Shown here: positions 1-39,576 of the stretch, one piece after another | Layout of the letters: each line of letters opens with the position of its first letter | Numbering within the stretch: the first letter of the stretch is position 1 | Assembly (NCBI GenBank): GCA_020055655.1 | Contig: JAIPUR010000025.1 | Span: forward strand, 1 to 39,576 | Source of the DNA: Methanosarcinaceae archaeon | GTDB lineage: Archaea > Halobacteriota > Methanosarcinia > Methanosarcinales > Methanosarcinaceae | Length of the DNA: 39,576 bases | Reading direction: 5' to 3' | Position numbers and translations under genes: made by a program | Notes under the pieces: generated by a model | The model's database searches: none | Told to the model about the DNA's origin: nothing | Seen by the model: the letters and a program-made list of their open reading frames with translations, nothing else

Positions 1-47
1 AGCGCAATAATTATAATAACGGCAACTAAATAATAGAATTTTTTCAT
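1..47 (-). CDS. N-terminus of an unidentified exported or membrane protein (partial)
   Basis: An ATG at 47-45 on the minus strand opens a frame that runs off the left edge. The 15 visible residues start MKKFYYLVAV and continue with a run of isoleucines, which looks like a signal peptide or membrane anchor. The gene lies 17 nt downstream of the Cache-like gene and in the same direction as the TolC-like gene. In efflux operons the next gene is often a membrane-fusion (HlyD-type) subunit, so that is my guess, but too little is visible to say. Confidence 0.45.
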   Translation of the reverse strand, partial: MKKFYYLVAVIIIIA

Positions 48-64
48 GATTAAAACTTCTTAAA

Positions 65-520
65 TCAATAAATAATTTTTAGCAATAACCAATTTGTTTC
101 TTTAATCTCTGCTTTGTAAATCGTATGTTTTTTTCCATCAACATAAAAATTTTCCTTAAAGGAACCTTTCAGTATTTTATGAATTGCTTCTCGCATCCCT
201 TTATTTTGATGCTTTGCTAACGGAGGAGAATTATACATTAAAATATTTTGAGTTACAGGTTTGTAATAAGAAAAATCACGATATGAAGGAATATGAAATC
301 GTTTAGATCCATGTTGGGTAGTACAGATAACATTTCCTTTGTTGTCGGTTAGTATTAAAACCCGTGTTTGATCTTTAAAATATTTTTCTAAAATATTTTT
401 TACGGGAATATCAGCTGACAGAATCCCAATAAATTTATCATGGTAATAAACCGGCACACTTAAAGATAAAAGGAGGCTGACTGCTAATAATAAACTGATA
501 ATAATCTTATTTGTTTTCAT
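65..520 (-). CDS. small exported Cache-domain-like protein
   Basis: This 151-residue protein has a hydrophobic signal or anchor at residues 5-24. The next part resembles the membrane-distal half of a Cache (PAS-like extracellular sensor) domain: YYHDKFIGILSADIPVKNIL, then LILTDNKGNVICT. A normal dCache receptor would be longer and carry a second helix plus a HAMP, kinase or methyl-accepting domain. Here the frame simply stops, so it is a free-standing or truncated sensor domain. The start is well supported: AGGAGGGG sits 8 nt upstream, and the ATG overlaps the end of the TolC-like gene by 14 nt, which suggests translational coupling. Such a strong Shine-Dalgarno fits a bacterium. The ligand is unknown; the link to efflux is inferred from gene order only. 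Confidence 0.6.
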   Translation of the reverse strand: MKTNKIIISLLLAVSLLLSLSVPVYYHDKFIGILSADIPVKNILEKYFKDQTRVLILTDNKGNVICTTQHGSKRFHIPSYRDFSYYKPVTQNILMYNSPPLAKHQNKGMREAIHKILKGSFKENFYVDGKKHTIYKAEIKETNWLLLKIIY

Positions 521-1583
521 AATTTAGCCCCTCCTTAAAATCACCTGTGCTCAAGTATAATTCTGCCAGACTGAGATAATAATCTATCTGAGCATGAGCA
601 TAATTGATTTCACTCTGGTAAAGATCAACCTGAGTTTCTAAAAGCTCTGTTCCGGTGATATAGTCCTCTTCAAAATATAATATTTTTACTCTCAGTGCTT
701 CTTCAAAACTTTCTATTAACTTCTGATAGCGCTCAATCTCTGCAGTACTGTCCTGATGATCAAGAAATTTATTATTGACATCAAGTTTTACTTTATCTTT
801 AATTAATTTAAGCTGGTTTTCAGCATTTTTAAGTTCATTTTCTGCTTCTTTTGCGTCTAAATCAGAGCGATAATCTCTGGCAGCAAGGCGGTAATTGATT
901 TGCTGAAGTTCTTTATTTGCCTCAGCTTCCTTAATCTCAATTCTCTTTTTTAAAGCAGTTTCAAAAAGTTTTTTTAGGCTTTCTTCCAACTGCCAATTTT
1001 TTAGTCTATTTTCTCTGAAATTAAGCTGCAGCTGATCTTCATAATCCATTTTCAAATTTTGTTTTACTTTAAATTCAGCTCTCTTTTTATTATTAACAGC
1101 TGCTTTTAAGTTACTGGCTGCAGTTTTTAATTCAACTTCTGCCTGCATTAAATCACTTTTAATTAAAATTCCCTGTTCATATTTCTCTTTGATATTTTCC
1201 AGTTCCTCTTCTAAAATTTCCTGATATTTCTGGTGAATAGCAATAGAATTTTCTGCTTTATAATAATTGAAAAATTCATTAATCAAATTTTTAGCAACTT
1301 GATCTCTGGTAATTTCTAAATTTCTCTCTGCTATTTCAAACTCTGTTTCTGCTTTTTTTAAAAGCAGTGGTGAAGGACGTACTTCCTGTTCTGCCATTTC
1401 TTTCGCTAAAGCAATTTCTTTAGCTTCCAGATTCATTTCAGCTTCTTTAACTTCTTCATTTTCCACCAGTGACTTCTCTAAGTAGCCCTGCATATCCAGA
1501 TCCGAATCAGCAGCTGAGACATTTAAAGTAATTAATAAAACCGCTGCTATTATTAAAAATATAAATAAGATTTTTTTTTGCAT
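507..1583 (-). CDS. TolC-family outer membrane efflux protein
   Basis: The 358-residue protein has a signal peptide (about residues 1-24, ending near VSAADS). Two long alpha-helical, Lys/Glu-rich stretches follow with heptad character (about 35-150 and 195-340), as in the tandem helical hairpins of outer membrane efflux (OEP) proteins. Such proteins form the outer-membrane channel of tripartite type I secretion or RND/ABC pumps. It is shorter than typical TolC (about 450), so part of one repeat may be reduced. AAAGGGGAT 6 nt before the ATG fixes the start. A perfect 20-bp palindrome lies just upstream, so TetR-type repression is likely. An outer membrane protein has no place in a methanogen envelope, which is one reason to think this block is bacterial. 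Lys/Glu richness and AT-rich codons suggest Halanaerobiales (inference). Confidence 0.75.
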   Translation of the reverse strand: MQKKILFIFLIIAAVLLITLNVSAADSDLDMQGYLEKSLVENEEVKEAEMNLEAKEIALAKEMAEQEVRPSPLLLKKAETEFEIAERNLEITRDQVAKNLINEFFNYYKAENSIAIHQKYQEILEEELENIKEKYEQGILIKSDLMQAEVELKTAASNLKAAVNNKKRAEFKVKQNLKMDYEDQLQLNFRENRLKNWQLEESLKKLFETALKKRIEIKEAEANKELQQINYRLAARDYRSDLDAKEAENELKNAENQLKLIKDKVKLDVNNKFLDHQDSTAEIERYQKLIESFEEALRVKILYFEEDYITGTELLETQVDLYQSEINYAHAQIDYYLSLAELYLSTGDFKEGLNYENK

Positions 1584-1603
1584 TTTAATCCCCTTTCATA
1601 TAC

Positions 1604-1623
1604 ATGAATGAATATTCATTCAT
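1604..1623. promoter_or_regulatory. perfect 20-bp palindrome, TetR-type operator ahead of the TolC-like gene
   Basis: The sequence ATGAATGAATATTCATTCAT is its own reverse complement. Its core TGAATGA-N4-TCATTCA recurs at 2076-2093 ahead of the cupin gene. Spacing and symmetry fit a TetR-family dimer site. It sits between the likely promoter and the Shine-Dalgarno of the TolC-like gene. No regulator gene is in the window. Confidence 0.7.
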
Positions 1624-1640
1624 ATAATTTAAATAATATA

Positions 1641-1660
1641 CCAGCTGCTCTCACAGCCGG
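1641..1660 (-). terminator. putative terminator hairpin after the cupin gene
   Basis: CCAGCTG and CAGCCGG can pair over 7 bp (one G-U) with a 6-nt loop. The flanks are A/T-rich on both sides, so it could work on either strand. It separates the cupin gene from the TolC-like gene; the T-tract on the minus strand is broken (TATATTATTT). Confidence 0.45.
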
Positions 1661-1697
1661 TTTTATTTTCTGTCTTTATTTTAATTAGAAAATTTTA

Positions 1698-2015
1698 TTA
1701 TAGTGATGGTGTTTTTATATTTAAAACTTCAAATTTTTCTCCCTGGTCAGCCTTTAATTCCATTTCAGTATTTGGAGGACAGGTTACAATTGTTCCTGCT
1801 TCTACAACACTTGACTCTTCACCAATTCTTAAAGTTCCTTTACCTTCTTTAATGTAGAAGAATACATCTACCGGTACCTGATGTGCTGGTACAATATCTC
1901 CTTCAGATAAAATAAGGTTCATTACCTGAGCATTATCATGTTTTAAAACTCCCTTAGCAATAACCCCTCTTTTGTTTTTATTTCCTTCTAACTCACTTAA
2001 TTTAATAATTTCCAC
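1698..2015 (-). CDS. single-domain cupin protein
   Basis: A small (about 105 residues) cupin beta-barrel protein. The stretch EGDIVPAHQVPVDVFFYIKE followed by GKGTLRIGEE and VTCPPNTEM follows the two cupin motifs. Motif 1 keeps one His (PAHQVP) and has Asp where a second His is usual, so metal binding is uncertain. The role is unknown; small cupins of this kind are often redox or metabolite sensors. I chose the GTG at 2015 as start because AAAGGA lies 9 nt ahead; in-frame ATGs at 2024 and 2033 are alternatives. The gene has its own bacterial promoter with CRP-like and TetR-like sites, and stands alone between a terminator hairpin and the junction with archaeal DNA. Confidence 0.7.
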   Translation of the reverse strand: MEIIKLSELEGNKNKRGVIAKGVLKHDNAQVMNLILSEGDIVPAHQVPVDVFFYIKEGKGTLRIGEESSVVEAGTIVTCPPNTEMELKADQGEKFEVLNIKTPSL

Positions 2016-2075
2016 AAAAATCATTCCTTTCATTTGAGTAAATATTACTAACGACTATATTATAAATCTCCAATA

Positions 2076-2093
2076 TGAATGATTGCTCATTCA
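2076..2093. promoter_or_regulatory. second TetR-type operator, cupin promoter
   Basis: TGAATGA-TTGC-TCATTCA has the same two 7-bp arms and the same 4-bp spacing as the palindrome at 1604-1623. It would cover about +2 to +19 of the predicted cupin transcript, a classic repressor position. The two sites probably answer to one TetR-family repressor. Confidence 0.65.
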
Positions 2094-2094
2094 C

Positions 2095-2144
2095 TAATAT
2101 AAGTATAGTACTTTGCTTTTGGTTTTGCTGTGATACAGCTCACA
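2095..2144 (-). promoter_or_regulatory. bacterial class II CRP/FNR-type promoter of the cupin gene
   Basis: TGTGA-TACAGC-TCACA at 2129-2144 is a perfect match to the CRP-family consensus TGTGA-N6-TCACA. On the minus strand a TATACT -10 box lies at 2107-2102, predicting a start near 2095. The CRP-like site is then centred at about -41.5, the class II activator position, where a good -35 box is not needed; none is seen. This is sigma70-style, not archaeal, promoter design. Confidence 0.5.
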
Positions 2145-2163
2145 CTTAATAATTTTATTCATA

Positions 2164-5100
2164 TCAACTACTCCACTTAGACAATAAATCATTATAACCT
2201 TCTGACATCTCTTCTCGGCCTCCTACTTTGTCACCAACACCTTTTGGACCGGTGCCTACTACTGTAGCAGCATAGCCATTGAATCTGAATTTTATTGGAA
2301 TGTTATAACCTATCCACACCAAAACTCCACGTGTATCTCTTTCAAATGGATGATTTATACGTACATCTTCCCTCACATAAGTTTGCGCATCGTGTCCGAA
2401 GTAAGGATTTAACATACACTCATTGTCATTATCAGTGACTTCAAAACTACGATATTTTCCTACGACTTCATATTCCCATACATTAACCGTACAAACCCAA
2501 TGTGGCGGAATTACAGGTAAACCACATGGAACTAATTTCATAGACTTTTGCAAACGTGCTTCCATCTTGTCAGCAAGTTGAGCCGTGAGTTTGCCAGTAG
2601 ATTCATCCAGTTTGTTTTGAAGTTCATTGTTTATGTTCGTGAAACACTGGTCGATGGTTGCCTGACAGATAATTATAGATTCGGAGACTCCGTTTGCAAC
2701 ACCTATTCTGAGATCAGATTCGAGACGATAGAGAACAGCATCTATTTCATCGTTGTTTGGTGATGGATTATTTGATGTAATTCGCTGTCTAACACGTATG
2801 AGAATTTCTTCTTGCAAAGTTTTGTCAGCTACCATGCCTATGAGCTCTTCATCAGACAAAGAGTTCAGATAAACAGTTGTGATAGACCTTACTTCCGATT
2901 CACTGATCCATGAATTCATAATGGGATCGTTTATAATTTCCGACGCAAGCATATCTGGCACTTCATGGCGTATGCTTGTGCTGTATTCCGAGATCATTTT
3001 TGTGCGATTCTGCTCTATCAGTGAGGTGTCGGCTGAAATACCATTAGCAATAAGAACTGTGCGCTGAGATTGGATATCCAACATTAGTGAATCGACTTCA
3101 GTATTCATATCAGAAATACTCTGGCTCATGGATTGCGATATGGAAGCTTTTAGTGGTTCTGCACAATTGTTAAGCAATTTAGCAACATCATCGCCAATTC
3201 CTGTGGAGAAAACGCATGTGTTGCGTACACCAAGTGGGTAAACCTCCTTTCCAGTAATTTCATCTACCCACTTGTACTGGCTTTGCATATCAAACTCCGG
3301 GTCGTGGTAGAGATAATCAGGATACTGGTCAACAATGAGAGTTACGTTCTCGGTCCAGTTGTACTTGCTTTGAGGTTCACAGGTGACACTCATAGTTTCA
3401 ATGATACCCATTTCATTTGCAAGGGCTGTGGATGCTTTATCCATGGCAGGATTATCGAATATTAGATCTGTTGACACGCTGCCACCAACCATGTCCATGA
3501 GCTTTCCACCGGTTTCTGCCATGAATGATTCTTCCACATAATTGTTGAAGGAATCACTGATACCTTTATTCCGCTCCGTCATTTCATACAGCAAACGGTC
3601 GTATGCTTCATTTTTTACAATGGCACGACAGGCATCGTTGCTCGTATTGAACTGGGATTGGTTCATATGTTGATCTTGCTGTACAAATGATTCTCTTTTA
3701 GTTGATCCGGTCATTTCAGATGCCAGATCAAGTGAAGCTTTCTGGATCAGCTCAGTGGGATTTTTACCTAGGTTCTCGCCAAGCAGAGAAACATCCCTGT
3801 AGGGATCATCTGCATTAATGGCATTGAACATATCCTTCATTTCCAGTGCCATGTTTTTGTGTACCCATGAGGGAATTTCACAGTAAACCTTTTTTACAGG
3901 AATATAGCTGCCATTTGAGTAAAAAAGATGGTTTGCTTCTATTGATCCAATGCTTATATGATCCTCTCGGTATTTATCTGCAGCATCGGAGCAACATGTG
4001 TCAACTAAAGAAACACCATCAACAACTACCTGTGTATTTCTATAATCGTGTGAATTGCCCCCATTGTAACTGCTGCTAAAACCATTATAGCCACCTGATG
4101 GGAGGTATTGATGGTAAACGATACTTATATTTTCGGATTCTGTTTCTGTATGTGGAACAGATGCTATATTTTGCAAAGGATAATTAGTTCTGAAGCCACT
4201 GGAATCACCACTATGGAAGCTATAACCACTTTGAGAACTATAAGTCTTGTATGACCAGTGATACTTATAATAAATATTCCATCGGGTTTTTATTTTGAAA
4301 TTTATCTTGTAATTAACTCTCCAGTCGAAACTGTGATTCTCATTTTCTAAGTAACCATCCACACGTTTATTAGAGACAAGTGAATCATTTCCCAGATAAT
4401 CGTAAGTTACGTCGACACCCTCACGCGTAATATCATGGGATACAAGTTCAACCCTTGCATCTTTGTAGTACCATTTGTGCGAGGAAGCATCAATATTTAC
4501 TCTATGACTGATATCCAGTACTCCACTCCAATCATAGTTTGGCACAAGTGCACCATTATGAGATATTGAAACCGGGTAGTGCGCTTTCCAGTAAATGTTC
4601 TTTCCTGTTTTGGATTCCCCACCTTGCCAGGAAACCGAATCAACACTTGGCGTTCCTGCTCGTAATCCATAAGAGTTGACTACATCAAATCCATCTCTGA
4701 ACACCTGTCCCTGAACGTTCGCACTGTAAACCTCATGAGTCACATCATGCAAGAGGTCAGGATATGCACAATCCCATGGATCGATGAGAAGATTATCATT
4801 GTAAACCCATCCATAGTATACCTCATCCGTAAAATTCGATACAGCCACTGTGATCCTGGAATTGTTGGATATCTCTTCAATGCTTGTATTAGAATCTCTT
4901 AGAGATTCATTGATACTTTTTGAAACGCTAACATTGAATGATCCTTCATTGGAAAGTCCGTCATAAGTAGTAGATAGATTAGTTCCTTTTTCTACTTCAT
5001 AATTAGAACTGTCTCTTTTGACATCACTGTACAGGACCTTGCCGTTGTAATATGTAGTATATGCCAATGCCCACGGGTCAACCGAGTCAAATATCTTTTT

Positions 5101-6231
5101 CTGTGTATAGAGGCTGCCTGCATTCACGGATGAGGTCAATGAAGGAGAGGTTACGATATTCAGCGGACCATTGAAATAATGTTGCCACGGACCGTATGTA
5201 AAAGTGCGTATATTGGTGGCTCCCAGCACAATATCAGAAGTTGCTCTACCATTCAGAGATATTTCATACTCGTTGGTCATTTCCTCAAGCAGAGGCTCTC
5301 TTGATGTTATAACAGTGGAAATGTTCATACTACCATTATACATTTGTCCGTTTGAAATATCAACAAGAGAGTAATTGAGGTCATCAACTGACATAGTATA
5401 ATAGATAGTATATTCTGCTTTATCTTTTTCAGAACGCTCTAGTTCACGGTCAAGAGTACCGTTGATCTTGTCAATTCTTATTCTTGAGGAAGAAATATTC
5501 TGTTCTACATTTATAGCATAGCTGCTAAACGTGTGCAGATTATCCTGATAAGAAGCTGCTGTAAATTTGTTGAAATGATATGCAGTTATGTCTTTAACAG
5601 GGTTTGATGCTACACGAAACCAATTGGTTGCTTTAGTTTCATTCCCATAATTGAGTAACAAATAGGCATAGTCATCGTTTGCATTTGCAGGAATCCGAAT
5701 TGCTTCCTGAAATTCGGACTTGTGCCAGAATGAATGAAACTCGTCATAAACTATGGTTTGGTATATGGTACCTGATGAACCCTGAACAATTAATGTGCGT
5801 GGTTTTTCAGAAAAGATCGACACAATAGCTTCCAATACATTTGAGGGAAGAATGACAGATACATCCAACGAATCACCAGGTTCAACATCCCTAGTATCCA
5901 CAGTAAGGAAAAAACCATCTTTTCCCCATTCATCATAAGCAGTATCTTCTGGTTTTATAATTGGATGTTCACCCTGCCATTTCAATGCTTCCATACCTGC
6001 ATAGTTCAGGCAGCGTGCAAGATCAGCCGAAGCAAGGTCAAATGATGCTTTTTCCATATTACCATGATTGGTATCATAAATTGTTTCGGCAACTTCATAA
6101 TCCATTTTAGTTAGGTAAAAGGATGTTATTATTGAGACCAGAACTATGAGTATACCAATCACTGCAAAGGGAATATAGGCCTCGGTATCCTGCAATATAC
6201 CTTCGTTTTTACATTTAATTCGAAGAATCAT
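2164..6231 (-). CDS. very large membrane-anchored archaeal surface protein, pilus-like system
   Basis: A 1355-residue protein with one N-terminal membrane helix (about residues 20-42: AYIPFAVIGILIVLVSIITS) after a short charged head containing LQDTEA. The rest is extracellular by prediction, rich in Asn, Ser and Tyr with many N-x-S/T sequons, and contains long helical stretches around residues 1010-1230. No C-terminal anchor is seen. The head motif and helix resemble those of the four proteins beyond hisS, so I place it in the same system. Haloarchaea have a comparable gene set (DUF7284-DUF7288 families) near type IV pilus/secretion genes, and this would match the large DUF7286-type member; that is from memory and unverified. 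It is transcribed divergently from hisS, with a TATA box at 6281-6290. A minor pilin, tip adhesin or secretion-linked surface protein is possible. Confidence 0.6.
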   Translation of the reverse strand: MILRIKCKNEGILQDTEAYIPFAVIGILIVLVSIITSFYLTKMDYEVAETIYDTNHGNMEKASFDLASADLARCLNYAGMEALKWQGEHPIIKPEDTAYDEWGKDGFFLTVDTRDVEPGDSLDVSVILPSNVLEAIVSIFSEKPRTLIVQGSSGTIYQTIVYDEFHSFWHKSEFQEAIRIPANANDDYAYLLLNYGNETKATNWFRVASNPVKDITAYHFNKFTAASYQDNLHTFSSYAINVEQNISSSRIRIDKINGTLDRELERSEKDKAEYTIYYTMSVDDLNYSLVDISNGQMYNGSMNISTVITSREPLLEEMTNEYEISLNGRATSDIVLGATNIRTFTYGPWQHYFNGPLNIVTSPSLTSSVNAGSLYTQKKIFDSVDPWALAYTTYYNGKVLYSDVKRDSSNYEVEKGTNLSTTYDGLSNEGSFNVSVSKSINESLRDSNTSIEEISNNSRITVAVSNFTDEVYYGWVYNDNLLIDPWDCAYPDLLHDVTHEVYSANVQGQVFRDGFDVVNSYGLRAGTPSVDSVSWQGGESKTGKNIYWKAHYPVSISHNGALVPNYDWSGVLDISHRVNIDASSHKWYYKDARVELVSHDITREGVDVTYDYLGNDSLVSNKRVDGYLENENHSFDWRVNYKINFKIKTRWNIYYKYHWSYKTYSSQSGYSFHSGDSSGFRTNYPLQNIASVPHTETESENISIVYHQYLPSGGYNGFSSSYNGGNSHDYRNTQVVVDGVSLVDTCCSDAADKYREDHISIGSIEANHLFYSNGSYIPVKKVYCEIPSWVHKNMALEMKDMFNAINADDPYRDVSLLGENLGKNPTELIQKASLDLASEMTGSTKRESFVQQDQHMNQSQFNTSNDACRAIVKNEAYDRLLYEMTERNKGISDSFNNYVEESFMAETGGKLMDMVGGSVSTDLIFDNPAMDKASTALANEMGIIETMSVTCEPQSKYNWTENVTLIVDQYPDYLYHDPEFDMQSQYKWVDEITGKEVYPLGVRNTCVFSTGIGDDVAKLLNNCAEPLKASISQSMSQSISDMNTEVDSLMLDIQSQRTVLIANGISADTSLIEQNRTKMISEYSTSIRHEVPDMLASEIINDPIMNSWISESEVRSITTVYLNSLSDEELIGMVADKTLQEEILIRVRQRITSNNPSPNNDEIDAVLYRLESDLRIGVANGVSESIIICQATIDQCFTNINNELQNKLDESTGKLTAQLADKMEARLQKSMKLVPCGLPVIPPHWVCTVNVWEYEVVGKYRSFEVTDNDNECMLNPYFGHDAQTYVREDVRINHPFERDTRGVLVWIGYNIPIKFRFNGYAATVVGTGPKGVGDKVGGREEMSEGYNDLLSKWSS

Positions 6232-6280
6232 AGTTATGCCAAATAATTTTATACACAGTTTAGCTAGTCAGGGAAGAAAT

Positions 6281-6290
6281 GCATATAAAC
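6281..6290 (-). promoter_or_regulatory. archaeal TATA box for the 1355-residue surface protein
   Basis: On the minus strand GTTTATATGC forms a TATA box about 50 nt ahead of the ATG, predicting a start near 6260 and a leader of about 30 nt. The whole divergent gap 6232-6554 (323 bp) holds only this box and the hisS boxes; I see no RNA gene or credible ORF in it. Confidence 0.45.
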
Positions 6291-6457
6291 TTTATGATTT
6301 TGTTCAGAGCAATAGTAAAAAATAATATCTACTGATGAAAATAGACATCATTGTATATAGAACAAAAGGTCAAAAATATGATAGCATTAAAGTAAGTACA
6401 ATTTTAAGCATCTAAGAATTGATATATTTGCAAAACCAGAAATAAGATCAAATTAAT

Positions 6458-6485
6458 CGAAACTATAAAATAACCCGATATATAG
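6458..6485 (+). promoter_or_regulatory. candidate BRE/TATA boxes for hisS
   Basis: CGAAAC-TATAAAATA (6458-6472) looks like a BRE plus TATA box, and GATATATAG (6477-6485) is a second candidate. Either would give a leader of about 45-65 nt before the hisS ATG. I cannot tell which is used. Confidence 0.4.
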
Positions 6486-6554
6486 TATTCAAGCAGAATC
6501 AAAATAGGCAGAAAACTGCTTACAGTTAAATTCATCTTATCAGGTCGATCTACA

Positions 6555-7787
6555 ATGAAACTTAGCAAACCACGAGGAACAAGAGATTTTCTCCCAGAAG
6601 ATACAAAACGTAGAAGAAATGTAGAAAATATCTTACGTGGAGTAGTTAAGAACTGGGGTTTTGAAGAAATAATCACACCTACATTTGAGACTCTTGATCT
6701 TTTTACACTTAAATCCGGAGAAGGAATTATAGGAGAACTCTATAATTTTACAGACAAGGGTAACAGAGATATGACTCTTAGGCCTGAGCTCACCGCCCCG
6801 GTTATGAGAATGTATGTTAACGAAATGCAGGCAAGGCAGAGACCTATCAAATTATTCTATTTTGAGAACTGCTTCAGATATGAAAGGCCACAAAAGGGAC
6901 GTTTCAGAGAGTTCTGGCAATTTGGTGTTGAACTTATTGGTAGCAGTAAAGCTGATGCAGATGCAGAGGTCATTGCCCTTGCATACAAAATGCTGGAAGC
7001 AGTTGGCATCAAAGGCGACCTGCACATAAACAATCTTGGAGTAATAAGAAACCTTTTAAGTGTCCTTGAAACTGAACAGCAAAGCCGAATTATGAGACTT
7101 GTGGATAAAAAGGATTACACAGGTTTGGAAGAATATCTCGAAGAGATTAATGCTCCATCTGAGCTTAGAGTTAAGCTTCAGAGACTCATTGAGCTTACAG
7201 GGAACGATGCGATAGAGGAAGCCAGAAAACTCATTGGTGACATCCCTGAAATTAACGATTACCAAAAACTGATAGAACTTCTGGAAGCATACGGAATAGA
7301 GTACACTATTGATTTTGGAATTGCCAGAGGGCTTGATTACTATACTGGTGCGGTCTTTGAAATATATGCAGAAGGACTGGGAGCACAAAATCAGGTTTGT
7401 GGCGGTGGATCATACCAACTCATCAAATTATTTGGTGGGGGAGATGTCCCATCAACAGGGTTCGGACTTGGTTTTGATAGAATTATGGAAGTCTGTGAGA
7501 TAGAACCTGAAGAGTCCAGTTCTGTTGCTATTATCGCCAAAGATTCTACACGCCTGGAAGCAATAAAAGTTGCAAATGAACTTCGCCAGCATGTTCCTGT
7601 TTATGTGGACATCATGAAAAGAAACTTCAAGGCTCAGATGTCCTATGCCAATTATATAGAAGCCAGTCACAGCATAATAGTTGGTGAAAAGGAACTGGAA
7701 GAAGGAAAACTCACCCTGAAAGATATGAAGAGTGGTGATCAGGAATTACTTACTATTGAAGATATAATAGTAAAACTTACAGCATAA
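6555..7787 (+). CDS. hisS: histidyl-tRNA synthetase
   Basis: Class II aminoacyl-tRNA synthetase that charges tRNA-His in the cytoplasm. At 410 residues it has the usual length. Visible marks are the N-terminal [11 protein letters not shown], motif 2 region with [14 protein letters not shown], the HisRS-specific loop [14 protein letters not shown] near residue 260, and motif 3 [11 protein letters not shown]. The C-terminal 90 residues form the anticodon-binding domain. The ATG at 6555 is the only sensible start; there is no clear Shine-Dalgarno. Its stop is 6 nt before the first gene of the surface-protein run, so hisS is probably the lead gene of that operon. Confidence 0.95.
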
Positions 7788-7793
7788 GGTAGG

Positions 7794-8279
7794 ATGGTGC
7801 TTGTGCGCAGAAACTTGCTCGATGATGAAAGGGCTGCAGATGCCCTTCCCATGAAATTCGCTGCTGCAAGCATTGTACTTCTTATCCTTATTGTTCTTGC
7901 ATCCACAGCAGTTTCTTCATTACTCGAAGAAAAAAGCATTCATGATTGTGAAACTGCTATTCTTGAAATCGATTCGAATGCTAAGTTGATGTCTGCAAAT
8001 GGTGCAGGAAGTAAAATTACATTAGACATAAATATCCCTAAAAAAACATTACTTGTTCTTGGTGCTGTTCCTGATCAGGAAGCACTGTGGCCTGTTGATG
8101 CAAATAACTATTTTATACATACCAATAGCAGAGATATAATAGGCCAGTCCCTTGCATCTTATTCTAATAAGAATTTAACTGGTCCCATCAGCCTTGGACC
8201 AGGACCTCATTTACTTACACTGGAAAGTGTTAAAAGTTCTACTAACAATAGAATTTTTGTGAAGGTCTATGAAATTTAA
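7794..8279 (+). CDS. short single-pass membrane protein of the pilus-like cluster (first after hisS)
   Basis: The 161-residue protein has a basic head (VRRNLL), the motif DDERAADALP, then a membrane helix at about residues 24-43 (AAASIVLLILIVLASTAVSS). The outside part has about 120 residues with a beta-rich look and a GPISLGPGPHLLTL segment. It resembles archaeal pilin-like subunits in layout but lacks the classic class III signal peptide cut site. GTG codons at 7797 and 7803 are alternative starts; the ATG follows GGTAGG directly, so the last may be the true one. The next gene overlaps it by 11 nt. No known function. Confidence 0.6.
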   Translation: MVLVRRNLLDDERAADALPMKFAAASIVLLILIVLASTAVSSLLEEKSIHDCETAILEIDSNAKLMSANGAGSKITLDINIPKKTLLVLGAVPDQEALWPVDANNYFIHTNSRDIIGQSLASYSNKNLTGPISLGPGPHLLTLESVKSSTNNRIFVKVYEI

Positions 8280-39240: not shown

Positions 39241-39576
39241 TTATACGATCCTGTTTTTGCATTTGCACTTATTACTTTTTTCAGGATTCATATCAATTCC
39301 TGTAATTCCATCTGTATTGAAGTCAAATACATTTGCACGCCCATTAGCATCATAGATGTCCAGTTTGCAAGTGTCATTCACATCTCCGATAACTGCAGCC
39401 TTAATACCTGCTTTTTCAAAAATATCGATACATTCATCAGCATTTTCCGCTTTTGCAGTTACAACATAGCCAGTGGCAGGGTATATCTTAAGCCATTGCT
39501 CAAAGTCAATACCATCCGGACATGGAATCTTGCTAAGGTCCACAGAAGCTCCCACTTTACTAGTCTCGCAAAGCAT
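39241..39576 (-). CDS. AIR synthase-related protein, probable methanogenesis marker protein 2 (C-terminal part)
   Basis: The visible 111 residues run to the natural stop; the N-terminal part lies beyond the right edge, and the ATG at 39576 is probably internal. The text GASVDLSKIPCPDGIDFEQW, then YPATGYVVTAK, and GIKAAVIGDVNDTCKLDIYD matches the C-terminal (AIRS_C) domain of an AIR-synthase-related protein, as in the methanogen marker protein 2 family of about 390-430 residues. The last residues KSNKCKCKNRIV add a Cys pair. Role unknown; found in methanogens only. Confidence 0.65.
   Translation of the reverse strand: MLCETSKVGASVDLSKIPCPDGIDFEQWLKIYPATGYVVTAKAENADECIDIFEKAGIKAAVIGDVNDTCKLDIYDANGRANVFDFNTDGITGIDMNPEKSNKCKCKNRIV

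Follow-up and report, generated by a model that had tools for sequence, protein, structure and literature searches.

Chimeric contigs, in which fragments of several sources are joined, are a known type of error, and misassemblies are described as relatively rare in the available part of one source (PMC8201837). In a mock-community test, as far as the accessible portion of the report covers it, chimeric sequence was always located at contig ends (PMC8172020). Methanolobus and Halanaerobium are both mentioned for fractured-shale waters in the available text of another study, which did not detect Halanaerobium in its own Sichuan samples (PMC13377646). The efflux operon of H. saccharolyticum is ordered TetR, cupin, TolC, TolC, HlyD, and RND (L002 and L003).

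We analyzed a stretch of 39,576 nucleotides (hereafter the window; G000:C17:1-39576), which is the complete contig C17 of the archaeal genome G000. The assembly of G000 comprises 48 contigs and 2,476,202 bases, and is rated at 99.91% completeness and 0.9% contamination. The host genus may be Methanolobus, which we prefer to Methanohalophilus. The latter had been named in an earlier interpretation made from the letters of the window alone (the sequence-only reading) and is unsupported by the kinship data. We conclude with very high confidence that positions 1-2145 of the window, where C17 has its left end, are an assembly chimera, a reading strongly favoured over transfer. This confidence covers artefacts arising in software and in DNA molecules alike.

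Composition and content of the left end of C17

Since the window is all of C17, the bacterial block is the left end of the contig and base 1 is a contig edge. C17 thus ends inside foreign DNA, and no archaeal DNA is present on the far side of the block. The GC content was 0.279 in positions 1-455, 0.311 in 456-2145, and 0.387 in the remaining window, and the GC profile showed archaeal composition across 37 of the 39.6 kb. A Halanaerobium-versus-archaeal Markov score, calculated for 500-base windows on 1-8250, was above zero through 1751-2250 and below zero from 2001-2500 onward; from 2001 it was archaeal-like except in one intergenic window. The open reading frames (ORFs) within 1-2163 encoded only the TolC, cupin, and Cache-like proteins listed in Table 1. 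The GC step, the sign change of the Markov score, and the matches to PF02321 (TolC/OEP) and PF07883 (cupin) confirm the earlier claim that a bacterial block of very low GC stands against an archaeal chromosome. It had also been stated that no integrase, tRNA, or repeat marks the switch. In agreement, the three ORF products include no integrase, no tRNA was found near the block, and the terminal 150 bases at this end shared no 20-mer with the other searched sequence of G000. At the opposite end of the contig, the final 198 bases (39379-39576) are an exact reverse-strand copy of a sequence in C43 (approximately 132263-132460), and the right end of C17 therefore stops at a repeat.

The sequence-only reading had proposed a comparison of composition on both sides of the junction and a search of the first 2 kb against Halanaerobiales genomes. 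Composition differed across the junction in both GC and Markov score, as described above. Among the 12 Halanaerobium-genus genomes searched, the best match (G048) was collinear with 456-2145 at 87% nucleotide identity and did not continue beyond that span. The TolC protein of the window was 69% identical in amino acids to that of H. saccharolyticum, and a near-identical cupin was found at the same position in L055, L056, and L057. A search of G000 itself detected no second copy of this TolC outside the C17 block. Thus, the Halanaerobium source suggested earlier was borne out for 456-2145 and failed for 1-455.

Compared with the Halanaerobium efflux operon (L002 and L003), 456-2145 is collinear with the cupin-TolC-TolC2 start at 75-87% nucleotide identity and lacks TetR, HlyD, and RND. 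The full TolC-HlyD-RND set under a TetR gene is absent: besides the cupin, the window contained only a single TolC and part of the second TolC-like gene (TolC2). Both borders of the piece are cut: TolC2 ends after approximately 21 codons on one side and TetR is missing on the other, the TetR gene of G048 starting ten bases beyond the matched stretch. The operators and promoter palindromes pointed out in the sequence-only reading were found again in Halanaerobium loci. They comprise two inverted repeats (1604-1623 and 2077-2092) and the palindrome TGTGATACAGCTCACA. The names TetR and CRP given to them are putative; ATGAATGAATATTCATTCAT would be TetR-operator-like and TGTGATACAGCTCACA CRP/FNR-like. 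Judged by their recurrence, the promoter palindromes are Halanaerobium features.

The block had been described as a single bacterial unit. A second junction was found at approximately 455/456, and 1-455 had no match in the Halanaerobium genomes. Homology to G048:C22 (L055) starts at 456, where the ORF of L055 runs on as TolC2 (MKTNKIMISLLLVLSLFLSLTVSAAEIDLNTVLESAL...), and the residues encoded from 454 downward matched nothing in the 12 Halanaerobium-genus genomes. The ORF at 65-520 aligned with dCache_1 only at profile positions 128-237 of 240, with an E-value of 1.4e-4, a match that falls short of the curated cut-off. Among 299 genomes from the phylum of Halanaerobium, the Cache part gave a single weak match (E 2e-4) and, the window itself aside, a single weak match in 294 archaeal genomes (E 3e-4). 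No source of 1-455 was found in plasmids, phages, or viral contigs, and PDB sequences yielded one chance-level match only. Because these searches gave no convincing match, 1-455 is assigned to a third source, neither the Halanaerobium piece nor the archaeal host. Two Halanaerobium genomes showed short matches (27-28 bases, at 365-397), which we attribute to chance.

Table 1 Left-end features of contig C17 and of the adjoining archaeal sequence.
Feature	Position	Strand	Details
Foreign piece (S1)	1..455	-	Gene start reading MKKFYYLVAVIIIIA (47 down to contig edge) and C-terminal half of a Cache-like domain (65-454)
Junction S1/S2	455..456	.	In-frame fusion of MKTNKIIISLLLAVSLLLSLSV (TolC2 signal peptide) with PVYYHDKFIG... 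(Cache fragment)
Second TolC-like gene (TolC2), truncated start	456..520	-	About 21 codons; compare L055 3280-4671(-) and L002 11061-12458(+)
TolC-family outer membrane efflux protein (OEP), Halanaerobium type	507..1583	-	358 aa; PF02321, E 2e-19
Inverted repeat ATGAATGAATATTCATTCAT	1604..1623	.	Similar sequence recurs in Halanaerobium loci, also adjoining TetR genes
Small cupin protein	1698..2033	-	111 aa; PF07883, E 5.8e-8
Inverted repeat GAATGATTGCTCATTC, cupin promoter	2077..2092	.	L057 and L060 carry the same bases; L055 and L056 show one change
Palindrome TGTGATACAGCTCACA	2129..2144	.	GTGATACAGCTCACAC kept in L055, L056, L057, and L060; one change each in L002 and L003
Junction S2 (Halanaerobium)/S3 (archaeal)	2145..2146	.	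Best Halanaerobium match ends at 2145; archaeal gene start reaches 2146
Archaeal gene after DUF7286, cut by the junction	2146..2162	-	First codons ATG AAT AAA ATT ATT; gene order of relatives
DUF7286-family protein, archaeal, native to C17	2164..6231	-	1355 aa; PF23957, E 1.8e-34
hisS, archaeal anchor gene adjoining DUF7286 in relatives	6555..7787	+	TIGR00442, E 2.5e-121

The archaeal side and its continuation

Homologues of the DUF7286 gene and hisS lie side by side in same-genus genomes, as determined by DNA homology and neighbour order. All 13 relative loci in which the end of DUF7286 is present carry a small gene that begins at -10 to +36 relative to the DUF7286 stop codon, and the same was observed on contig C16 of G000. 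This small gene is presumably of the sarcinarray type. In the window, positions 2146-2166 of the minus strand read TGATATGAATAAAATTATTAA, which consists of the DUF7286 stop and the first codons of the archaeal gene that comes next, and the TGATATGAA context after the stop is the same as in the relative L019. Because of this shared context, the archaeal sequence is seen to reach approximately 2146, and it breaks off five codons into the next gene. The earlier reading had placed the bacterial side left of about 2145 and the archaeal side right of 2164, with the switch exactly at the end of a gene. The border at 2145 coincides with the end of the G048 match and is retained; the archaeal side starts at approximately 2146 rather than 2164, and the switch lies inside the next gene. 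The right limit of Halanaerobium homology was 2145 in G048 and was patchy to 2150-2169 in other genomes. No long word shared at 2145/2146 was demonstrated in a comparison from which the exact Halanaerobium source strain is absent.

The first 318 bases of contig C16 are the end of a DUF7286 gene; the small gene comes next and then the downstream order of the relatives, and the block is absent there. Because its start carries the expected gene order, C16 is likely the true neighbour of C17. The DUF7286 C-terminus on C16 (L015 = G000 C16:1-20000, positions 1-318) was 72% identical in amino acids to the window copy and 70.8% identical to that of the relative L027. Since the two ends differ, the gap between C17 and C16 is not simple. 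The end on C16 may be a second copy, an allele carried by a different strain, or a foreign cap in its own right, and a tandem duplicate of DUF7286 may explain it. A search of G000 for further DUF7286 sequences yielded only this 318-base end.

Foreign DNA at other contig ends

We examined 95 of the 96 contig ends of G000, the window included. In terms of GC content, 12 of the 95 terminal 600-base windows fell in the outer 0.5% tails of 220 interior windows. Besides the left end of C17, the Markov score flagged two ends, and GC bins flagged others. Five of the GC-outlier ends among the 11 listed (C3, C14, C22, C29, and C39) are rRNA genes, and we did not class them as foreign DNA. Further GC outliers were C11 and the left and right ends of C28. 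At most of the 95 ends, foreign DNA was not recognised by composition. The 23S/5S rRNA ends of C29 (L090, 1-3000) and C3 (L066, 1-3000) were 86.5% identical over 1047 bases, and because of this low identity, one of the two may stem from another methanogen. The 16S rRNA regions of C14 right (L123) and C22 right (L130) were 97.4% identical, with most differences past position 2407 of L123.

Foreign DNA was found at ends of C18, C44, C26, C1, and C6. At the right end of C18 (L126 = C18:34317-37316, approximately 1699-3000), mcrB-mcrD-mcrC is followed by a bacterial rplT gene (ribosomal protein L20; TIGR01032, E 4.8e-50) and an rRNA methylase gene, which replace mcrG. The relatives L158 and L161 have an identical mcrC-mcrG spacer that leads into mcrG, and the 10-base word ATGGCATATG is common to the starts of mcrG and rplT at the join. 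From the sequences compared, L126 is considered a chimeric contig end joined on ATGGCATATG. An assignment of this end to Halanaerobium was rejected: its rplT product shares only 74-78% protein identity with the genus, and the end therefore derives from some other bacterium.

At the left end of C6 (L069 = C6:1-3000, 1 to approximately 340-376), mcrC and the start of mcrG from a distant methanogen are joined in frame to the mcrG of the genome itself. The mcrC product was 47-54% identical in protein to those of relatives, and the DNA from approximately 337-379 onward was 83-87% identical to theirs. At the right end of C44 (L140 = C44:127640-130639, 635-3000), RamA is fused in frame with lipoyl synthase; a PpiC-type isomerase and NusB lie beyond it, with a GC content of 0.57. 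At the left end of C26 (L087 = C26:1-3000, 1 to approximately 1000), epimerase homology stops near residue 145, and the sequence then has a GC content of 0.67-0.71. The right end of C1 (L110 = C1:65718-68717, approximately 2040-3000) has a GC content of 0.15-0.19 and a topoisomerase-like ORF after a TGT_C2-domain gene.

Origin of the block and comparison with known systems

The following course very probably accounts for the block. A true gap in the archaeal sequence lies just inside the gene after DUF7286. Near this gap, the assembly was extended by approximately 1.7 kb from a co-occurring Halanaerobium and then by at least 455 bp from another organism. The joins would have been made by the assembler or by chimeric reads or amplification, perhaps on short shared words. 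We favour a chimera because of the contig-end position, the two-source mosaic, the cut Halanaerobium piece, the broken archaeal gene, the continuation on C16, and the foreign DNA at other ends. Against it stands the rating of 99.9% complete and 0.9% contaminated, which alone would signal no trouble. The differing DUF7286 end of C16, the lack of a shared 20-mer at this contig end and of a demonstrated long shared word at 2145/2146, and the many ends at which composition revealed no foreign DNA also speak against it. The sequence-only reading had left chimera and recent transfer open; the first is now strongly favoured, and the second is disfavoured by the mosaic, the missing far flank, and the other foreign ends.

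The joins may have been present in the sequenced molecules as laboratory or amplification chimeras, for example from multiple displacement amplification, an origin we consider possible and rather unlikely. Such chimeras would likewise be expected to link unrelated organisms at many contig ends, in some cases with little sequence in common or none, whereas the coherent foreign extensions of 1-2 kb at several ends fit graph errors equally well.

For a recent transfer, a piece of the Halanaerobium operon would first have had to be joined to another fragment and then to enter the methanogen chromosome within the gene after DUF7286, breaking it; we regard this as highly improbable. The sharp border and the foreign, still unadapted composition would suit it. 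Halanaerobium and methylotrophic methanogens are also reported from similar brines in the available part of one study (PMC13377646). However, within 2.1 kb the operon has lost both its ends and is joined to a third source, and none of 24 other same-genus genomes carries a related block (one 31-bp chance match). The far side lacks archaeal DNA, C16 has the expected downstream order without the block, and equally foreign DNA occurs at other contig ends, partly inside essential operons such as mcr. Neither recipient DNA on both sides nor presence in relatives or signs of mobility was found. A transfer would have to combine the mosaic, the truncation, the broken archaeal gene, the absence in relatives, and a chance position at a contig end in an assembly with other foreign ends; a chimera needs only one recurring fault. 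It is likewise highly improbable that a methanogen acquired a bacterial composite containing a Halanaerobium cupin-TolC unit, which would place an outer-membrane channel in a cell without an outer membrane. The idea that the contig is bacterial (Halanaerobium or other) and its archaeal part the intruder has no support apart from the first 2.1 kb and is refuted by the archaeal gene content, with DUF7286 and hisS adjoining as in same-genus genomes, 37 of 39.6 kb of archaeal composition, and a Markov score on 1-8250 that is archaeal-like from 2001, leaving it practically no credence.

The chimera thus remains the preferred reading, and the block is almost certainly not a real genomic feature but DNA of other organisms joined by an assembly error; the DNA on either side of the join is ordinary. 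As an artefact, it provides no evidence for gene movement between bacteria and archaea. As a warning, G000, although rated 99.9% complete and 0.9% contaminated, bears foreign sequence at several of its contig ends, in part fused in frame to archaeal genes. Its automated annotation would report interdomain transfers and fusion proteins that do not exist, RamA-lipoyl synthase being one of the latter. Transfer claims from such genomes need contig-end filters or read mapping first.

The window resembles interdomain transfer from bacteria to methanogens in that bacterial genes adjoin archaeal genes. In contrast to such transfer, it has no far flank and no carriers among relatives, and it holds a two-source mosaic with a truncated operon. 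C17 is the same in kind as a misassembled contig of a draft or metagenome-assembled genome, with fragments of several sources and the foreign part at the contig end. Whereas misassembly is called relatively rare in the available part of the source cited above (PMC8201837), several of the 95 examined ends of G000 carry foreign DNA.
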